A stretch of 64,000 bases of DNA from Flavobacterium subsaxonicum WB 4.1-42 = DSM 21790 (GTDB taxonomy: Bacteria; Bacteroidota; Bacteroidia; Flavobacteriales; Flavobacteriaceae). The stretch spans positions 413,230-477,229 of the forward strand of contig NZ_KE383909.1 in assembly GCF_000422725.1 (NCBI RefSeq), read 5' to 3'. Position numbers and translations under genes: made by a program. The notes beneath the pieces were generated by a model. The model saw only the letters and a list, made by a program, of their open reading frames with translations. It ran no database searches and had not been told where the DNA came from. Position 1 is the first letter of the stretch. Every line of letters starts with the position of its first letter. Of the stretch, positions 1-7,928 are shown in pieces.

Positions 1-720
1 GGTGGCGATGGCATCCTATACGAAACCGCAGGGGCATTGGGTAAAGGGGAGCGCATATTCATTACCGCCAAGCTGCCCGACTACATCCGTGTGGGCAACG
101 ATGATGTGATTGAGAAATACCTGTTCCTGACCACCGCACACGATGGTACAGGGAGCATAACCGCTGCATTCACACCCATCCGTATTGTCTGCACCAACAC
201 CCTTAATGCCGCCCTGAACAACAAGACCAATACCGTGCGCATACGCCATACCGCGAACGCCAAAGAACGGTTGGAACTGGCACATAAGGTAATGGGGATA
301 TCCGACACGCTGTCGGTGCAGATGGAAGCCATCTTTAACGGGTGGGCTAAAACACGGATTTCCGACAACGAGGTTAAAAGGCTCATTGAACTTGCCCTTG
401 CACCCAACGATACTGCATTAAAAAACCTGCAACAGGGTAACGAAGGGGAACTTTCCACCTGCTTTACCAATATGGTGGATAGTGCCTTTGAATATGCGAT
501 GGCTGACCCCACCCAACAGATGGAAACCACAAAAGGGACGGTGTTCGGGGCGTACAACAGCGTAACAGGCTACTTTCAAAATGTGCGCAGCTACAAAGAT
601 GATGAGGCAAAACTGGCGTCTTTGCTATTGGGTGGCACAGGGCAACAGCGTGCGCAAACCGCCTTTAACCTTTGCAACGGCTTTACAAAAAGTAGGGCGG
701 ATATACTGTGGCACAATTAA
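1..720 (+). CDS. DUF932 (phage/plasmid-like) protein, 5' end outside window
   Basis: The reading frame is open from base 1, so the gene begins upstream; 239 residues and the stop are visible. The visible part has the DUF932 pattern (segments such as RIVCTNTLNAAL and the basic RIRHTANAKERL helix), a family found on plasmids, phages and integrative elements and often beside PRTRC genes. The molecular role of DUF932 is unknown. A TTG at 37 is inside the domain and is not a credible start. The gene heads a same-strand run ending at 4824, which suggests one accessory operon. Family call from recalled motif resemblance; function unknown. Confidence 0.75.
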   Translation, partial: GGDGILYETAGALGKGERIFITAKLPDYIRVGNDDVIEKYLFLTTAHDGTGSITAAFTPIRIVCTNTLNAALNNKTNTVRIRHTANAKERLELAHKVMGISDTLSVQMEAIFNGWAKTRISDNEVKRLIELALAPNDTALKNLQQGNEGELSTCFTNMVDSAFEYAMADPTQQMETTKGTVFGAYNSVTGYFQNVRSYKDDEAKLASLLLGGTGQQRAQTAFNLCNGFTKSRADILWHN

Positions 721-766
721 ACAACAGGGACGGGTACGACCTATCCGTCCCATAATACTACACGTT

Positions 767-1144
767 ATGGCAGCTTTAGAATATACAAGCCTTATTGGCA
801 AAGCAAGGATACTGCACAGGTGGTTCCCCGAGGAGATACCCGCCCTCTTAGAGACGATGGACGGCATGCTAACCGCAATACAGCAGGAAGTCCCGCAGCG
901 ACTGAAAGGTTGGGAATTTACTATAAGGAACGATGCCTTGCAGGAAGCCTTGCTTAAGGAGGCGCAGCAGGTAATCAGGGAGCACGGCGCGGCAATGTAT
1001 AGGAATGACAAGCTCTTTGCCGAGCAGCTTTTCACAGGGCTGAAAAGGGTCTATACAGGGTACTGCCTTATAACCTATGCCCCCACAAGGAAACTTCACA
1101 ACCGAAAATTTGCACTCGCCGTAGAATTGCTCTTTGGCATCTAA
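767..1144 (+). CDS. hypothetical protein in PRTRC operon
   Basis: A 125-residue protein I do not recognise. The frame is open further upstream into the DUF932 gene, but the ATG at 767 is the first sensible start after that gene ends at 720. It looks soluble and largely helical, with a Trp/Phe-containing N-terminal part (ARILHRWFPEEIPALLE) and a basic, aromatic C-terminus. No signal peptide or membrane segment is visible. It lies between the DUF932 gene and a small membrane protein gene on the same strand, 12 nt before the latter. Its position suggests a role tied to the mobile-element cassette; nothing more can be said from sequence. Confidence 0.6.
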   Translation: MAALEYTSLIGKARILHRWFPEEIPALLETMDGMLTAIQQEVPQRLKGWEFTIRNDALQEALLKEAQQVIREHGAAMYRNDKLFAEQLFTGLKRVYTGYCLITYAPTRKLHNRKFALAVELLFGI

Positions 1145-1156
1145 AAACCTGAAACC

Positions 1157-1393
1157 ATGGAAACGTTAAGCATTAAAATACCACCCCCTTTTTGGGGTTA
1201 CCTGTTCCTCTTTTTAGGTATAGCTATTCAATATTGCATCGGCAAAAGAAAGTTTGACCGCAGGGGTATCGGTGGGCTGCCTCAATTTAGCAGCTACGGC
1301 AAGGCAGTGATTATAACTTTTTTGGAATGGCTTTTTAAAGGGATAGGGTTCGCCCTTATAGGCTTAGGGCTGTTCCTGCTCATCAATTTGTAA
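1157..1393 (+). CDS. small two-helix membrane protein in PRTRC operon
   Basis: A 78-residue protein with two hydrophobic stretches, roughly residues 10-27 (PPFWGYLFLFLGIAIQYC) and 60-78 (IGFALIGLGLFLLINL), joined by a basic loop with KRKFDRR. This predicts a double-pass membrane protein. The ATG at 1157 is 12 nt after the previous stop, and the next gene (PRTRC E) starts 17 nt after its end, so it fits an operon. No family is recognised. Small membrane proteins of this sort are common in plasmid and conjugative regions; a transfer-related role would be a guess. Confidence 0.6.
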   Translation: METLSIKIPPPFWGYLFLFLGIAIQYCIGKRKFDRRGIGGLPQFSSYGKAVIITFLEWLFKGIGFALIGLGLFLLINL

Positions 1394-1410
1394 TACTAAA
1401 ACTAACGATT

Positions 1411-1938
1411 ATGGAAACGATTTTTTTTAAACAACTGACCGCTATAAACCCCGCCCCCGATGTGGAGTGGGTACTGGTGGTAAAACAGGCAGCATCGGGA
1501 AATATTGTGGTTTCCCTGCTGTATAAAGATGGGGCATGCGGGGATAAGGCTGCCAAAGTGATACCGCCACTGGTATTTAGTGCATCCCCTGAAAAAATAG
1601 ACGACTGCTTCTTTACAGACATTACCACCGCAATGGGAACCACTGTAGCTATAATAAATAGCATGGGGCAGTACCAAAAACAGCAGGAGAAAGCCAAACA
1701 GGGGGGGCAGGGCGAGAAAAGCAAAAGCAGTAACGCCGACAAACCCAAAGCGGAGGTGGTTGATAAATATGCAGCGGCCATGCTGAAAGCTGATGAACTG
1801 GAAGCACAGGGTAAATTCAGGGACGCATGGATGAAAGTGCCCTCCGCACAGGAATTCCCTGAGCATGCAGAAACCATACGCGCCCGTAAGGCAGCACTAT
1901 CCGCGCAATTCGATAACGGCCTTTTCAGTACCATTTAA
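1411..1938 (+). CDS. PRTRC system protein E
   Basis: A 175-residue protein matching the PRTRC E layout. An N-terminal domain of about 85 residues carries the pattern FFKQLTAINPAPDVEW and a conserved IPPLVFSASPEKID segment. A low-complexity Lys/Gln/Ser/Gly linker follows (about residues 88-112, very basic), then an Ala/Glu/Lys-rich helical tail. PRTRC proteins A to F are defined by their joint occurrence with ParB- and ThiF-related proteins on plasmids and integrative elements; the biochemical role of E is not known. PRTRC C starts 11 nt downstream. Recognition rests on recalled family sequence plus the B/C/ThiF neighbours. Confidence 0.8.
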   Translation: METIFFKQLTAINPAPDVEWVLVVKQAASGNIVVSLLYKDGACGDKAAKVIPPLVFSASPEKIDDCFFTDITTAMGTTVAIINSMGQYQKQQEKAKQGGQGEKSKSSNADKPKAEVVDKYAAAMLKADELEAQGKFRDAWMKVPSAQEFPEHAETIRARKAALSAQFDNGLFSTI

Positions 1939-1949
1939 AACCGTAAGCC

Positions 1950-2168
1950 ATGTTAGTAGCCACACAACTCCAAAGGGTGTTTTCCTTTAAGGAAAAAGAG
2001 CAGCTGATACAGCTTGCCGACCCATCGCCATCGTTCAGCCCCGAAGCGGTGCTGAACTTTTACGCCCAGACCTATCCTATCCTGACCACCGCCAACATTC
2101 AGGGGCCAGTGATTAGCAACGATGAAGTGCAGTATACCTTTGTTACCCAAATCGGAACCAAAGGATAA
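1950..2168 (+). CDS. PRTRC system protein C
   Basis: A 72-residue protein with the compact PRTRC C form: an alternating hydrophobic N-terminus, a central SPEAVLNFYAQTYPILTTA segment and a C-terminal beta-like strand ending YTFVTQIGTKG. The length is typical of the family. The pattern suggests a single small alpha/beta domain, and the 'build a strand, then PEAV..FYA..YP' layout is the hallmark I used. Function is unknown; it always travels with the other PRTRC genes. It begins 11 nt after PRTRC E and ends 4 nt before the ATG at 2173. Confidence 0.8.
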   Translation: MLVATQLQRVFSFKEKEQLIQLADPSPSFSPEAVLNFYAQTYPILTTANIQGPVISNDEVQYTFVTQIGTKG

Positions 2169-2172
2169 CACT

Positions 2173-2346
2173 ATGAAAACAAAAAAGAACCGCAGTATAC
2201 TACTGCCAAATGATAAAAAGCTATGCAAACTATACCAAAAAATAGGGGAATTCGCAAGGGGGATGGAAAGGCTGCCCGATGCACAGGAAGTGAAAAAACA
2301 GCGGGTAACATCAGTGCCGGTGCAGCTCCTGCCGATGGTTTTTTAA
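2173..2346 (+). CDS. short ORF, possible 5' part of the 2223-3311 gene
   Basis: A 57-residue ORF with a good translation context: its ATG lies 4 nt after the PRTRC C stop and follows an AAGGA motif. The N-terminus is very basic (MKTKKNRSILLPNDKK). It overlaps the larger gene starting at 2223 in another frame and stops right after a run of six T (2339-2344). A -1 slip at that run would join it to the downstream frame. So it is either the true 5' end of the next gene, separated by a frameshift (natural, programmed or a sequencing error), or a separate small protein. I cannot decide between these. Confidence 0.45.
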   Translation: MKTKKNRSILLPNDKKLCKLYQKIGEFARGMERLPDAQEVKKQRVTSVPVQLLPMVF

Positions 2347-3311
2347 GGCAGCAGTTCTTCCCCTTGTATGAAAGCACGGGCAAAGTGCCCAAAAGGGGAA
2401 AGGCAGAAACAGCGTTCTTTGAGTCCCTTGAAATCCTGACAGGGGTGTACGGTTTTACGATTACAGGGATTGAAGACAAGCCCTATCCGCTTAATATCCT
2501 GTATGCACACCATCAGGTAGAAAAACAGCTTACCGCATCAGGTCAGGATATAGAAGTGTCGATAGTAAAAGACAACGGTGCGGTGAAACTTATGACCTGT
2601 TGCCAGTACGCTACAGGGACAACGTTGTACTACATTCCTGTGCTGCCGCTTTATAAACTAATAAAGGAAAGGAAACACAGGCATACCGCAGCATTATTAC
2701 TATCAGTTTGCTGCTACCTGTACCGCAACGTGTGTGTTCCTTTTTACAGGGACGACTATTGCTTTATCTATTACAATTATGAATGTATGGAGGGGTGGTT
2801 TGACGAAGATATGGAAGGATATGCCGACAGGCACACCGACATAACCTTTAAAGAATTAAGGCAGGCAAAGCATTATGGGGACATCATGCACCGCAAAATC
2901 TACAACCCCTACCATCTTGCTGATTTTCAAAGGCGCATAGCAGCCTATACTCCCAATACGGCTATGGAATACGAATGCCTGAGCGTGGCGAAAAGAACCT
3001 TTGCCCTGATGCAGGACTACCCTGAGCGCAGTATTTTCAAAAATACCCGCAATCAGGAATTTGAAGAAGGCGAGGACAGCATCGCAGCGGAGCAGTACAT
3101 CTCCTTTGTAGCGCGGACGGACGGCGCGCTTTACGACCAAATTGCCCAAATGGTTAACGATGAATTTAATGAATGCGGGGAAATGCAAATCCCGACCCTG
3201 ACCCAACTATTTGATGCCGAAAATACGCCCGACCCGCAGGGCTTGGATTTTGAGTATAGGCTGTTCCCCCTGATAAATGATTTATGTTCCATTTTAAATA
3301 ACCTGCCATGA
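2223..3311 (+). CDS. hypothetical protein of PRTRC operon (362 aa, 5' end uncertain)
   Basis: A long frame of 362 codons between PRTRC C and PRTRC B, clearly coding from about 2340 onward. No family is recognised with confidence; in similar cassettes this position is taken by an unnamed protein or by PRTRC F, and I cannot confirm F here. It has an aromatic, acidic middle (many Tyr and Asp around residues 165-215) and looks soluble. The ATG at 2223 has no obvious ribosome-binding site, and the first 35-40 residues (rich in G, A, K, R) read less naturally than the rest. The real start may be at 2173 through a frameshift near 2339-2346. Its stop overlaps the PRTRC B start by 4 nt, indicating translational coupling. 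Confidence 0.7.
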   Translation: MQTIPKNRGIRKGDGKAARCTGSEKTAGNISAGAAPADGFLRQQFFPLYESTGKVPKRGKAETAFFESLEILTGVYGFTITGIEDKPYPLNILYAHHQVEKQLTASGQDIEVSIVKDNGAVKLMTCCQYATGTTLYYIPVLPLYKLIKERKHRHTAALLLSVCCYLYRNVCVPFYRDDYCFIYYNYECMEGWFDEDMEGYADRHTDITFKELRQAKHYGDIMHRKIYNPYHLADFQRRIAAYTPNTAMEYECLSVAKRTFALMQDYPERSIFKNTRNQEFEEGEDSIAAEQYISFVARTDGALYDQIAQMVNDEFNECGEMQIPTLTQLFDAENTPDPQGLDFEYRLFPLINDLCSILNNLP

Positions 3312-4024
3312 AAAATATAACCGACAACTTTGGTACGATGTACACCCCTGTAAAGGCACTTGTTGTATTCCAAAAAAATGACCCGCAGGGAAGTACGTAT
3401 ATAGAAAGCTATGATATGAATGCTAACGGCTATCCAGTCAATGCACACCCGTTAAGCCTCACGGAAAGCGCAGCTTTAGCAAATGCACTGGATACCTCCG
3501 ATGAACTCAGGCGCAATTTCCTTAAACCATTGGGTTTGCTGCCTAAGAATGTGCTGTACATTAATCCTGACTATGACGGCTATGCCTTATGGTATACCCC
3601 TGCCATGGAAGTGGCTCTGTTTTTTTTAGATAAACTCGCTATCCCAAACGGTAAGGCAGCGATACCGCCACTAATATGGAAAGCATCGAAGAAAGAACTT
3701 TATATTTTTGCTATGGATGGTGTGGAGGCAATTGAGGAGCAAACCCCGCTGTACCGAGCGCCCTTTTTTAATATTTATGATGATGGCAGGGTATGCATGG
3801 GCACAGTTTCCGTTGACGTAAGACCCGACTGCCTCTTACAGGAATTCATGCAGCTTTGGGAAAGCTACTTCTTTAACAGCTACTTCAGCCACCTGCTCGG
3901 TGGGAAAAGCCCTGTACGGGGAAACATCATACAATTATGGCAAAGCCTTATCGGGTCAGGAAAGGCATTTCCCATACCGGAACTGGTAAAAAATGGAAGA
4001 ACCCTTAAAAAACTTTTATCATGA
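3308..4024 (+). CDS. PRTRC system protein B
   Basis: A 238-residue protein with PRTRC B hallmarks: an N-terminal strand region followed by SLTESAALANAL, a central YALWYTPA segment and IPPLIWKA, a LYIFAMDG strand, and a FFNIYDDGRVCMGT motif near residue 155. Function is unknown. The gene overlaps its upstream neighbour by 4 nt (ATGA at 3308) and the ThiF gene by 4 nt at 4021, so the three are translationally coupled. The YTPA and NIYDDG..C segments are what I would use to confirm the family. Likely a cytoplasmic protein, as no signal or membrane helix is seen. Confidence 0.85.
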   Translation: MKNITDNFGTMYTPVKALVVFQKNDPQGSTYIESYDMNANGYPVNAHPLSLTESAALANALDTSDELRRNFLKPLGLLPKNVLYINPDYDGYALWYTPAMEVALFFLDKLAIPNGKAAIPPLIWKASKKELYIFAMDGVEAIEEQTPLYRAPFFNIYDDGRVCMGTVSVDVRPDCLLQEFMQLWESYFFNSYFSHLLGGKSPVRGNIIQLWQSLIGSGKAFPIPELVKNGRTLKKLLS

Positions 4025-4824
4025 AACCTCAAACCGCTATGCATTATGCAGATAATTACCTGATAAACCCGACCAACCCCATAACGGTTAACCTTCTCGG
4101 TGCTGGCGGCACAGGCAGCCATGTGCTGACCGCACTTTCTAAAATGAACTACAGCCTCGTTGCCTTGGGGCATGCAGGATTGCACGTAACTGTGTATGAT
4201 GCCGATACCGTAACACAGGCTAATAAGGGGAGGCAGCTTTTTGCCGACAGCGAAGTAGGCATGTACAAATCAGTGGCACTGGTTAACCGCATCAACCGCT
4301 TTTTTGGGACGAACTGGAAAGCCGTTGCAAGACCGTTCACAAGGAAACTACTCAGGCAGTTGCCCAACCGTGGCAGGGCAAATATTTATATTAGCTGTGT
4401 GGATACGGTTGCCGCACGGCTCGATATTGCCGCAGCCCTACAGGACAATAGCGGTAGCTTTTTTGCAGAGCGTGACAGGGGAATCTACTGGATGGATATG
4501 GGGAATGCACAAAAAACGGGGCAGGTAATCCTGTCGACTATTGGTGCCATACAACAACCTGAATCAAAATTGTACAGGACGGTACCCTACCTTCCTACTG
4601 TTACCGATGAATTCAGGGAACAACTGGAGGCACAGGCGGATAACAGTGAGCCGAGCTGCTCGTTAGCGGAAGCATTGGAAAAGCAGGATTTATTTATTAA
4701 CCCTGCTTTAGCCGATTTAGGAGGTTCACTGTTATGGAACCTGTTCAGGAACGGCATGACCGCCTATAGGGGTTTCTTCCTAAACCTTGCGGATTTCAGG
4801 TCAATGCCTATAATGGTGGGTTAA
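4021..4824 (+). CDS. PRTRC system ThiF-family (E1-like) protein
   Basis: A 267-residue ThiF/MoeB/E1-like protein. A nucleotide-binding glycine motif NLLGAGGTGSHVL lies near residues 24-36. Downstream come the DADTV..AN.GRQ segment and the ISCVDTVAARL segment expected of the E1 fold, which adenylates the C-terminus of a ubiquitin-like or ThiS-like partner. A Cys in PSCSLAEAL near the C-terminus is a candidate acceptor Cys. No ubiquitin-like protein, E2 or JAB protease gene is visible in the window, so the substrate is unknown. It is the last gene of the PRTRC operon and overlaps PRTRC B by 4 nt. The absence of a ParB-like gene here means it lies upstream of the window or is missing. Confidence 0.85.
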   Translation: MKPQTAMHYADNYLINPTNPITVNLLGAGGTGSHVLTALSKMNYSLVALGHAGLHVTVYDADTVTQANKGRQLFADSEVGMYKSVALVNRINRFFGTNWKAVARPFTRKLLRQLPNRGRANIYISCVDTVAARLDIAAALQDNSGSFFAERDRGIYWMDMGNAQKTGQVILSTIGAIQQPESKLYRTVPYLPTVTDEFREQLEAQADNSEPSCSLAEALEKQDLFINPALADLGGSLLWNLFRNGMTAYRGFFLNLADFRSMPIMVG

Positions 4825-4884: not shown

Positions 4885-4928
4885 GCCGCACTTTACTAAA
4901 AACTTTTCAGTTCTTAGTAAAGTGCGGC
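4885..4928 (+). terminator. perfect 15-bp hairpin, terminator of PRTRC operon
   Basis: GCCGCACTTTACTAA (4885-4899) and its exact reverse complement (4914-4928) form a 15-bp stem with a 14-nt loop, followed by the T-rich TTTATCTTGTCTT. This is a strong candidate rho-independent terminator for the operon ending at 4824. The stem is long enough that it could also be a protein-binding palindrome. Confidence 0.6.
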
Positions 4929-5284
4929 TTTATCTTGTCTTCTGCATATCCTTACTTAACGAGTCTTTATAAAGCATTCTTCAGGATGTAGAAGGATGTC
5001 AGCCCTGAAATATAGATACATAAAAAACCTTGATGATAGCAGGGGGAAATTAAGTAAAGCGACAACAGTGGAATTATTTAATGTTTTATAATTACAAATT
5101 ATTCAGGAAATAAAACAAGAGATATCTCGCAGCAACAGAAGCGTAATCATAACTGATGACATAGTAGCCCGTAAATTTAATTAGATCTTTTGATAGCAAA
5201 AAAAACAAAGCAACTAGGGGTAGTATATTTTTGAATTTTTTAGTGGTACTATCGCCCTAATGGCTTTTGTCTTTTCTAGTTGAT
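4929..5284. other. spacer without a recognised gene
   Basis: A+T-rich DNA between the PRTRC cassette and the sugar island. I see no credible ORF. CAACTAG near 5210 and CTAGTTG near 5276 form a short inverted repeat. No copy of the 31.2/46.1 kb direct repeats is visible here, so I cannot place an island boundary, although the change in gene content and apparent base composition suggests one. Confidence 0.4.
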
Positions 5285-5325
5285 ATACAAATAATGCCAC
5301 TGTCTTCCAATGGCATTATTTGTAT
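5285..5325 (-). terminator. perfect 15-bp hairpin near the 3' end of the GH95 gene
   Basis: ATACAAATAATGCCA (5285-5299) pairs perfectly with TGGCATTATTTGTAT (5311-5325), with an 11-nt loop. It sits 49 nt past the stop of the minus-strand GH95 gene and could end that transcript. A run of seven T lies 8 nt beyond the right arm on the plus strand, so it could also work in the other direction. Confidence 0.5.
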
Positions 5326-5374
5326 TTGTGGAGTTTTTTTATATAGAAAACGAACCCAAGTCTGGAGATCATGT

Positions 5375-7834
5375 TTACAATATCGATTTTACTATGTATT
5401 CATACCCCTTTCTAGTTTTAAAGCTAATGGTATAACCTATAGCTGATTTTACGCTTTTTAAATGCAGTGACTTAATTTCAAAAGGCTCGTTTGCTCTTAT
5501 GGTACAATCATTTCCATTTTTAGAAACGATTTTGGCTGATGAAAGCTTACCTTCATCCCAGTTAATATCTACAATAAAACTGCCTCTTGCTACAATACCT
5601 TTAACAAATCCATTTTCCCAAGCATCGGGTAGGGCAGGCAATAATTGTATTTCTTCATTTTGGCTTTGCATAAGCATTTCTATAACACCTGCAGTACCTG
5701 CAAAATTACCATCTATTTGAAATGGGGGGTGCGCATCAAAAAGATTAGCATATACACCACCACCGCTGTTATAATGAGGGTCGCTTTCTTTTGTAAGGCG
5801 CAACTGGTTCCTAAATAACTTATAGGCATGGTTGCCATCTAAAAGGCGTGCCCACATATTTACTTTCCAAGCCAGGCTCCAACCGGTGCCGCCATCACCT
5901 CGTAGTTCTAACGTTTTTTTAGCAGCATTGGCGAGATCGGGTGTTTTTAATGGCGATATTAAGTTTGTAGGGTGCAATGCATATAGGTGAGACATATGCC
6001 TATGGTGTGGGTCTTCTTCTTCAAAATCTTTATACCACTCTAACAACTGGCCTTTACTGCCAATTTTAAACGGGAATAATATTTGGTTAGCAGTTATAAT
6101 AGTGTCTCTAAAATCCTTATCGGTATTTAAGATGGTCGACGCTGCTGCAATGTTAGCAAATAAATCTTTAATAATACCCATATCCATAGTACTTGCCACT
6201 GTTACGGCTCCTTTCTTTTTACCATCGTAATAATACCTGTTTTCTGGCGAGGTAGATGGCATTGTAACTAAATAGCCATCTTTATCTTTTTGTAGCCAGT
6301 CTAAAGTAAACTCTGCAGCACCCTTCATAACAGGGTAGGCCTCTTTAAGGTATTTTTTATCGCCGGTAAACTGGTAATGTTCCCATAAATGCCTGCTTAG
6401 CCAGTTGGCTCCCATATACCAGTTTGCCCACATAGGGTCGCCTTTACCACGGTCGCCCACTGGATTGCTTAAAGCCCAGATATCAGAATTATGGTGCACC
6501 ACCCAACCGTGTGCATGGTAAAAGCTTTGTGCCGTTTCTGCACCAGTAACTGAGAGGTTCTTTATAAGATCGTTTAACGGAGAAAACAATTCCGAAAGGT
6601 TTGCCGTTTCTACAGGCCAATAATTCATTTGCAGGTTAATATTAGTTGTATAGTTGCTGCTCCAGGGGGCGCGCAATTCCTTGTTCCAAATTCCCTGTAA
6701 ATTAGCAGGTGCGCCTTTTGTGCGTGAGGAAGATATTAGTAAATACCTCCCATACTGAAAAAATAATGCTTCGAGATTTGCATCTTTTGCACCCGTAGCA
6801 TAGTCTTCCAATCGTTTATCTGTAGGTTGATCGCTCTTGTTAGTCTCCCAGTTATTAAGGTTTAAAGAAACGCGATTAAAAAAATGGTGAAAATCTTCAA
6901 GGTGCTCTTTAAGTAATCGGTCATACTTTTTGCCATCAGCTTTTGCCAGATACTCTTCTGCTAATTTTTTTTCATCTTTGCCTTCGCTGTCCGGGCATTT
7001 ATCAAAACCATTAAAGCTTGTAGCTGCCGATAGTACAAGTACAACTTCGGTAGCATTTTTAATATCTATACTATTATCGCTATTGGTAGTAAGTGTACCA
7101 CTTTTAATAATGGGTTTTACAATTAATTCAAAACGCATGCCGCCGCAACCACCATCTTTATAAACCACGGCTTCCTTATTATAATTAATATAACTGGGAT
7201 CTGTATTAGCGGGGGCTTTGCCATTTAAAAACAAGGCTTGTTGTTTTATAGAACTTTTATATTGTAGTTGACTATTGGCATTAACTGTAATCGAAAGTTT
7301 ATTGGGCTCGCTGGCTGTAAGCCTCACAATAATACATTGCCCCGGTGCCGATGCAAAAACTTCGCGTTTGTAAGATATTCCATCAGCGGTAAAAGTTGTT
7401 GTGGCTACACCATCTTGTATATTTAGATCTCTGTAATAAGCAGATGGTTTAGCATTACCCAAATCTTGCTTTAATAACAGGTCGCCTAATGGCAAATAAC
7501 TTTGGCTGTAAACGCCCTGCATTTTTTTCGTTAGCTCATACGCTTTTTCATAATCGCCATTAATTAAAGCTTCCCTTGTAGGCGCTAAATTTTCGAAAGC
7601 TGTAGGGTTTATGTTTTTTAATACCGGACCACCACTCCATAACGTAGCTTCGTTAAGTTGTATAAGTTCTTCATTAACCCTGCCAAAAACCATAGCTCCA
7701 AGCCGCCCATTACCAATAGGCAATGCCTCCGTCCATACGGTTGCAGGCTGGTTATAATGAAGTTTTAATTCTTGTTGTGAATAAGCACTTGTTGCAAATA
7801 ATAATAGTAAAAAAGCTTTGTGTATTTTTATCAT
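5375..7834 (-). CDS. glycoside hydrolase family 95 (alpha-L-fucosidase / alpha-L-galactosidase)
   Basis: An 819-residue secreted GH95 enzyme, an inverting family that removes terminal alpha-1,2-linked L-fucose (some members prefer L-galactose) from Gal. The N-terminal domain opens with the family signature around WTEALPIGNGRLGAMVFG and NEATLWSGGP. The catalytic (alpha/alpha)6 barrel shows INLQMNYWP (the two Asn of the family), TSPENRY (Glu about 531) and DGNFAGTAG (Asp about 708). I chose the ATG at 7834, which gives a clean signal peptide (MIKIHKAFLLLLFATSAYSQ), over an upstream start at 7888. It is divergent from the susC operon and beside an AraC regulator. Fucose release fits the FucP and fucose-oxidation genes in the island. 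Confidence 0.9.
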   Translation of the reverse strand: MIKIHKAFLLLLFATSAYSQQELKLHYNQPATVWTEALPIGNGRLGAMVFGRVNEELIQLNEATLWSGGPVLKNINPTAFENLAPTREALINGDYEKAYELTKKMQGVYSQSYLPLGDLLLKQDLGNAKPSAYYRDLNIQDGVATTTFTADGISYKREVFASAPGQCIIVRLTASEPNKLSITVNANSQLQYKSSIKQQALFLNGKAPANTDPSYINYNKEAVVYKDGGCGGMRFELIVKPIIKSGTLTTNSDNSIDIKNATEVVLVLSAATSFNGFDKCPDSEGKDEKKLAEEYLAKADGKKYDRLLKEHLEDFHHFFNRVSLNLNNWETNKSDQPTDKRLEDYATGAKDANLEALFFQYGRYLLISSSRTKGAPANLQGIWNKELRAPWSSNYTTNINLQMNYWPVETANLSELFSPLNDLIKNLSVTGAETAQSFYHAHGWVVHHNSDIWALSNPVGDRGKGDPMWANWYMGANWLSRHLWEHYQFTGDKKYLKEAYPVMKGAAEFTLDWLQKDKDGYLVTMPSTSPENRYYYDGKKKGAVTVASTMDMGIIKDLFANIAAASTILNTDKDFRDTIITANQILFPFKIGSKGQLLEWYKDFEEEDPHHRHMSHLYALHPTNLISPLKTPDLANAAKKTLELRGDGGTGWSLAWKVNMWARLLDGNHAYKLFRNQLRLTKESDPHYNSGGGVYANLFDAHPPFQIDGNFAGTAGVIEMLMQSQNEEIQLLPALPDAWENGFVKGIVARGSFIVDINWDEGKLSSAKIVSKNGNDCTIRANEPFEIKSLHLKSVKSAIGYTISFKTRKGYEYIVKSIL

Positions 7835-7928
7835 CTTGTGTGTAATAGGCAATTGAATAGTAAAGGCATGTAATTTGAATAACAACAACAGGCCTTAATA
7901 GATCCTGACTATTACAAATTACTGAATT

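Follow-up and report, generated by a model that had tools for sequence, protein, structure and literature searches.

The first genes of a 64,000-nucleotide stretch of Flavobacterium subsaxonicum WB 4.1-42 = DSM 21790 (hereafter the window, positions 413,230-477,229 of a 1.38-Mb contig) form a PRTRC cassette which, judged by the families and conserved residues of its proteins, has the look of a minimal conjugation system of the ubiquitin type. Between the genes for PRTRC C and the PRTRC F-slot protein it holds a short overlapping gene, provisionally named prtG, which looks new. The operon itself has been described before, and its biochemical interpretation dates back twenty years; prtG readily escapes notice, since it shares bases with an adjacent gene read in a different frame. 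Taken as a whole, a mobile-element-borne PRTRC cassette for the conjugation of a ubiquitin-like protein (Ubl), with a hidden extra gene whose product PrtG would act as a dedicated partner, is a reading that we hold with good confidence. A reconstitution limited to the named genes would lack a component on which selection is about as strong as on C, and the overlap of prtG and F offers a natural, well-controlled example of coding in two frames, seen in two phyla.

A gene hidden between PRTRC C and the F-slot gene

The initial annotation took positions 2173-3311 as a single protein. Read in the frame of 2173, this interval holds 20 stops, and it resolves instead into two overlapping open reading frames (ORFs), the hidden gene and the PRTRC F-slot gene (Table 1). 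The hidden ORF ends ATG GTT TTT TAA, and F reads in the -1 frame. The conserved core of F starts at 2337 (GFLRQQFFPLY; GGT TTT TTA), and the 38 codons that precede this core overlap prtG.

Conservation was followed in 103 Bacteroidota loci, namely the window, 20 loci from a sample of the phylum (in which ThiF was found in 16 of 395 genomes), two loci from Bacteroidales plasmids and the best 80 of 440 confirmed loci on GTDB contigs. Nine were unmapped for C and the F core, seven having no mapped C (L046, L050, L061, L065, L068, L077 and L091) and two no F-core match (L029 and L051, inspected by eye); the 94 mapped loci contain repeats of the same genomes (e.g. L031 and L062), and 79 of 92 are distinct at four or more bases. 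Relative to the F core, the prtG stop occupies one and the same base in all 94 mapped loci, and an ATG is found 54-60 codons upstream of it in 93. In the exception, L135 (Mucilaginibacter psychrotolerans, ~5100-5340), prtG and F share one frame, either because the two are naturally fused or because a single base was gained or lost. A sequencing error or a decayed pseudogene peculiar to this genome, which would account for an interval unreadable as one ORF, is ruled out by a split common to 94 of 94 loci.

Selection within the overlap was measured on pairs of loci that are 75-97% identical there, with L135 excluded from both the selection and the open-frame counts and L120 also from the former. 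Differences fall on prtG codon positions 1, 2 and 3 in proportions of 30, 20 and 50% (265 pairs, 79 distinct loci). Omega is 0.195 for prtG. The values for C and for a ten-codon piece of the F core are 0.155 and 0.17, and the F frame gives 1.42 on the overlapping bases; other identity bins gave 0.205 and 0.098 for prtG and 1.82 and 1.42 for the F frame, which shows no sign of protein-level constraint across the overlap. In all 93 loci counted, this frame nevertheless has no stop over 36 codons, when 7.9 (7.6 in a separate run) are expected after reshuffling synonymous prtG codons with each locus's own usage. Nine control frames stayed close to expectation, with observed/expected counts of 22/25.9, 4/2.6, 1/4.1, 33/27.3, 0/0.2, 0/2.6, 10/5.4, 13/10.4 and 17/15.0. 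Since the loci fall in 31 clusters at 75% identity, the effect does not come from one lineage counted repeatedly. F has an ATG in its own frame in all 94 mapped loci, mostly 38 or 57-58 codons upstream of the core and with the frame open onward; its commonest place is 7 bases before the prtG ATG (49/93 loci), and the next commonest 53 bases after it (28/93). Because the prtG frame is constrained while the unconstrained F frame is kept open, it is very probable that two overlapping genes are present, a constrained prtG and an F whose free N-terminal extension is read through prtG. PrtG has no match above cut-off in Pfam, NCBIfam or PHROGs, and its predicted structure has two helices, the second of them short, and a loose tail.

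The prtG slot outside Bacteroidota

Proteobacterial PRTRC plasmids (TIGR03734-TIGR03742) share the order E, C, F slot, B and ThiF, and a hidden prtG between C and F is also found in the Burkholderiaceae loci examined. The stop of prtG keeps the same register, ahead of the xFLTLP-like core of F, in 12 of 12 mapped plasmid cassettes of Burkholderiaceae. The encoded PrtG has 70-73 residues (MRK.DL.KAL...PPERAVF...EE..CCSIL...PLPDVDLPMIF), and within the overlap 36, 25 and 39% of the differences fall on its codon positions 1, 2 and 3, a trend that agrees with the one in Bacteroidota. All 14 loci considered (12 Burkholderiaceae, Aromatoleum and Pelobacter) keep the F frame open upstream for 33 codons or more, against 3.7 expected. 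Common descent of PrtG across the phyla is likely, since PrtG from C. metallidurans CH34 aligns with the window's PrtG, and likewise with Aromatoleum PrtG, better than 1000 of 1000 shuffles each time. Across loci, prtG thus appears as an extra conserved cassette gene of 54-78 codons; in most of those examined both frames run through its 3' part, since F starts ahead of its own core, within prtG or shortly before it. Two loci missed by the register mapping outside Bacteroidota (L028 and L053) had their prtG placed by its own end. In the gene tables of 11 proteobacterial plasmid regions, prtG is given as a 'hypothetical protein' in three (L144, L145 and L146) and is unlisted in eight, although these tables are incomplete and 'not listed' is no proof of 'not annotated'.

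A different arrangement is seen in the betaproteobacteria Azospira (L157) and Sulfuricystis (L160). Here a gene annotated on its own as hypothetical, 74-78 codons long, occupies the slot, and the GTG start codon of F coincides exactly with the beginning of the F core, 7 bases ahead of the slot gene's stop. This is probably the older state, the start of F having elsewhere moved upstream into or past prtG.

These loci bear on two other explanations of the overlap. One is that a programmed -1 frameshift of the ribosome, at the T-rich junction GGTTTTTTAA, joins prtG and F into one protein: prtG ends exactly where the conserved core of F begins, a T-rich stretch lies at the junction in most loci, and L135 carries both in one frame. 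This reading was dropped on the ATG that F has of its own and the upstream frame kept open behind it, which a frameshift would not need, and on the separate genes of Azospira and Sulfuricystis. The T stretch is, moreover, interrupted in five of 94 loci (GGTATTCTAA in three, GGTATCTTAA and GGTTTTATAA in one each), so that no slippery site is conserved. Because of these interruptions and of the separate genes there is little room for a general frameshift, which we consider very unlikely. Equally, the prtG ORF might be no gene at all and simply mirror the constraint on F, its stop being forced by the FL[TKR] motif of F; where the codon after the conserved (G)FL starts with A, a TAA or TGA indeed arises in the frame of prtG. 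Substitutions in the overlap, however, track the codon positions of prtG and not those of F (strongly in Bacteroidota, mildly in Burkholderiaceae), a gene is separately annotated in the slot of Azospira and Sulfuricystis, and three Burkholderiaceae records list prtG as hypothetical, all of which makes this explanation extremely improbable.

In Tunicatimonas pelagia a possible prtG, judged by eye only, occupies the slot. The same plasmid carries, ~7 kb from its PRTRC cassette (L052:15059-17259), a second ubiquitin-type set composed of a multiubiquitin protein, a ThiF-family adenylyltransferase and a DUF6527 protein.

Ubiquitin-like, E2-like and E1-like proteins of the cassette

The initial annotation saw no ubiquitin-like substrate for the ThiF-like protein in the operon. 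Such a protein is nonetheless present: PRTRC C, of 72 residues, contains one match to Prok_Ub (PF14454, E 9e-27; NCBIfam PRTRC_C, TIGR03738, E 2e-19, 69.7 bits against a cut-off of 45.95), and terminates in G[TV]KG-stop in 96 of the 96 Bacteroidota loci that have C. PRTRC B belongs to Prok-E2_D (PF14460, 112.1 bits, cut-off 25; TIGR03737, 109.1 bits, below its cut-off of 131.45), and retains the E2 cysteine in 102/102 loci and the histidine in 101/102. The 267-residue ThiF protein scores 241 bits with TIGR03736 (cut-off 144.75) and has an intact active site, all 12 tested columns, Cys213 included, being invariant in 103 of 103 loci, a set that includes one decayed copy with stops (L046). Among solved structures, its nearest relatives by sequence score alike (UBA5, E 9e-7; ThiF, 3e-6; Cap2, 8e-6), and searches of PDB sequences with the C, B and F profiles found no credible relative. 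Since the E1, E2 and C-terminal Gly residues are kept, the chemistry of conjugation appears intact on paper, and it is probable that conjugation happens.

In the mechanism that we propose, ThiF would adenylate the terminal Gly of C and then take C as a thioester on Cys213; C would next be passed to Cys163 of B, which would attach it to targets. PrtG would be a dedicated partner of the conjugation step, as adaptor or first target. A sulfur-carrier system making a ThiS/ThiF-like thiocarboxylate, rather than a protein conjugate, would agree with the ThiF superfamily membership of the E1-like protein and with the presence of ThiF among its nearest solved structures. UBA5 and Cap2 score like ThiF, however, no sulfurtransferase is found among the family matches of the operon, and the dedicated E2-like protein with its invariant Cys and near-invariant His, together with the invariant Cys213, makes a sulfur carrier unlikely.

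C-terminal tails of C, JAB and the possible role of PrtG

The PRTRC A and ParB genes whose search the initial annotation had proposed did not appear. PRTRC A, the JAB protein (TIGR03735), was detected in none of 16 Bacteroidota cassette genomes, while four of four control plasmids were positive, and the closest Prok-JAB match to ThiF in the 16 genomes is ~22.6 kb away. PRTRC ParB (TIGR03734) was above cut-off in none of the same 16; each has one weaker match, a ~300-residue ParB frame on another contig or >50 kb away. Bacteroidota C would be made already mature, so that no JAB protease would be needed.

Elsewhere, C extends past the Gly in three of three aligned Burkholderiaceae proteins, as well as in Hydrogenophaga (L151 and L159), Rhodoferax (L152) and Azonexus, and all seven operons with an extended C have an annotated PRTRC A. 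The reverse fails, as L053 and L157 have A and no C tail; in Pelobacter, A is present on the plasmid and C ends GTKA. The operon's JAB could cut the tail where there is one. Trimming of C by JAB fits the data, because the operons with tailed C carry PRTRC A, just as the JAB of the Bil system trims BilA (PMC11354881). The contrast between the pre-matured C of the JAB-less Bacteroidota cassettes and the tailed C of JAB-bearing plasmids would give a clear prediction of the purpose of JAB.

In the Comamonadaceae Hydrogenophaga and Rhodoferax, C continues in frame for 69-71 residues past ...GAKG or ...GTKG. The length and place of these tails suggest a C::PrtG fusion, likely for L152 and possible for L151 and L159, the tails of which are clearly alike; an outright prtG fusion in all three was considered and dropped on weak shuffle support. 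The fixed place of prtG behind C and the PrtG-sized tails behind the Gly of C in some plasmids lead us to give about even chances to PrtG working as a partner of C, for which it may be an adaptor, a first target or a chaperone. A bolder proposal, which we regard as doubtful, is that PrtG is an ancient cross-phylum Ubl partner, either the cassette's own conjugation target or an E3-like adaptor, hidden in the F frame in many lineages, and that Comamonadaceae make a Ubl::PrtG polyprotein that JAB must cut.

A separate observation concerns Burkholderiaceae, where the C tail is read over the prtG start (L030:7335-7350 and L136), C, prtG and F thereby forming a chain of overlaps.

Evidence to the contrary and the F-slot protein

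Several results weigh against a conjugation cassette with PrtG as a conserved partner. The codon-position signal of prtG is milder in Burkholderiaceae than in Bacteroidota, and a comparison of the PrtG profiles of the two groups gave E 0.002 but a probability of 14%. The slot genes of Azospira and Sulfuricystis weakly resemble other PrtG and would be assigned by slot, register and length. Several distant plasmids are without a clear prtG: in L153 (Polaromonas) there is no C beside F, in L154 (Sphingobium) the slot holds a 74-codon ORF without the LPMVF end, in L155 (Aeromonas) no C is found nearby, in L156 (Halopseudomonas) prtG is ambiguous, and for L054 (Deinococcus) and L055 (Vibrio) no PRTRC C or F is listed in the examined stretch. 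The predicted PrtG structure is mediocre (pLDDT 72.7). When the Comamonadaceae tails were compared with eight PrtG each and the best was retained, shuffle counts were 10/1000 for L151 (against L157), 2/1000 for L152 (against L053) and 99/1000 for L159. The C of an Azonexus hydrophilus plasmid (L158:2501-2875) carries a 57-residue tail past GTKG that is not PrtG-like, a PrtG-like ORF being found downstream of it in another frame. In addition, TIGR03735 may miss a divergent JAB.

The remaining points concern F. It has no match to NCBIfam PRTRC_F (TIGR03742), which, together with the lack of PRTRC ParB and PRTRC A in the tested genomes, distinguishes the Bacteroidota form from proteobacterial PRTRC. 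The slot and length of F resemble those of PRTRC F; the cross-phylum comparison of F profiles is weak and does not demonstrate homology. The F core is modelled with a pLDDT of 88.3, and its fold has no PDB match (best Foldseek E 0.53; best VIA Z 3.9, with rmsd 4.0 over 113 residues). Several rows for UFC1, an E2, appeared at E 1.4-3.7, which is not significant and from which no inference is drawn, and family searches with the core returned nothing above cut-offs.

Relation to known systems

The operon type that Iyer, Burroughs and Aravind named 6d (2006, PMC1779556) is described as sporadic, with Bacteroides thetaiotaomicron in its list, and as coding for a Ubl that ends in a conserved Gly, an E1, an E2 whose His lies downstream, a JAB and a protein that is mostly helical. 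The Ubl with C-terminal Gly, the E1 and the E2 with Cys and downstream His all have counterparts here, and the mostly helical protein is probably F; the difference lies in the JAB listed there, none being adjacent in the tested Bacteroidota cassettes. The passages on type 6d name no further small gene and do not mention prtG. In other sources, 'PRTRC' is used as a plasmid annotation (PMC7466150) and an expression table includes the B. thetaiotaomicron cassette genes (PMC10434189). In the accessible literature, which took in neither most subscription journals nor any preprints, we found no functional experiment on the cassette and no gene described in the place of prtG. Relatives of the window's ThiF occur in 375 plasmid records, not all with the whole cassette.

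The antiphage operon Bil (BilABCD) similarly combines a Ubl, an E2, an E1 and, where present, a JAB exposing the Gly. It differs in the two Ubl domains of BilA and in the longer, pseudodimeric E1 that is BilD, whereas a single Ubl and a shorter E1 are found here; the BilD model matches the cassette ThiF only at E 0.002. The Cap2/Cap3 module of type II CBASS also has an E1-like domain related to ThiF. Cap2, however, is an E1-E2 fusion that acts on a CD-NTase, and the family matches of the operon include no such protein. In eukaryotes, ubiquitin is fused to ribosomal proteins in UBA52 and RPS27A. The C proteins of L151, L152 and L159 resemble these fusions in carrying a protein-sized tail behind the terminal Gly of a Ubl, with the difference that the PrtG identity of the tail is weakly supported and cleavage after the Gly is putative.

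Operon layout and mobile setting

The single plus-strand operon with overlapping genes described in the initial annotation stands, with DUF932, E, C, B and ThiF all placed and F/B and B/ThiF each overlapping by 4 bases (Table 1). For PRTRC E, PF19556 gives 154.4 bits (cut-off 26) and TIGR03741 20.6 bits, below its cut-off of 37.95. A relative of the DUF932 protein is found at 77 of 103 loci, some of which are cut short. The two small ORFs upstream of E, formerly put forward as candidate substrates or partners, were set aside, as their patchy distribution makes them look accessory.

Table 1. Features of the PRTRC cassette in the window
Feature	Position	Strand	Basis or remark
DUF932 / TIGR03299 protein	1..720	+	Pfam E 2e-58, NCBIfam E 4e-40; 5' end cut by window start
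Small ORF, apparently accessory, 125 aa, no family	767..1144	+	Relative in 16/103 loci
Small hydrophobic ORF, apparently accessory, 78 aa, no family	1157..1393	+	Relative in 7/103 loci
PRTRC protein E	1411..1938	+	Pfam PF19556 E 3e-45
PRTRC protein C, ubiquitin-like (Prok_Ub), ends ...GTKG-stop	1950..2168	+	Pfam, NCBIfam
prtG (provisional name), 57 codons, between C and F, ends ...LLPMVF-stop	2173..2346	+	Frame +1 relative to F
PRTRC F-slot gene, 362 aa	2223..3311	+	Slot equals annotated PRTRC F of proteobacterial plasmids
PRTRC protein B, E2-like (Prok-E2_D), Cys163, His195	3308..4024	+	Pfam E 3e-32
PRTRC ThiF-family protein, E1-like, Cys213	4021..4824	+	NCBIfam PRTRC_ThiF E 9e-72
Terminator-like hairpin, 20-nt arms	4885..4928	+	RNA fold -28.8 kcal/mol, z -5.9

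The strong terminator proposed in the initial annotation corresponds to the terminator-like inverted repeat behind ThiF; a simple consensus terminator scan does not include this hairpin, and its sites are at chance level (8 against 7.0 expected). A large ORF on the opposite strand follows downstream of the cassette, at 5375-7888.

A gene for a single-stranded DNA-binding protein (SSB) lies immediately upstream of the cassette, and genes for ImuB-like and DnaE2-like polymerases are also found upstream. MobC, a MobA/VirD2-type relaxase and a YWFCY/TraG-type coupling protein are encoded ~20-26 kb upstream of the window. Because of these upstream genes, the cassette is probably the terminal part of an element that is mobilizable or conjugative, in agreement with the mobile setting considered in the initial annotation.

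Two minor observations may be added. On the presumed mobile element, an S24-type repressor gene lies upstream with the ImuB-like and DnaE2-like genes (L002:2200-7270), a possible mobile mutagenesis set. Decayed ThiF copies are found in L023 and L046 (G277:C1:1280491-1281276) and at G375:C8:1059-1846; one has three internal stops and the other is split into two matches, and the host genomes also hold an intact copy.

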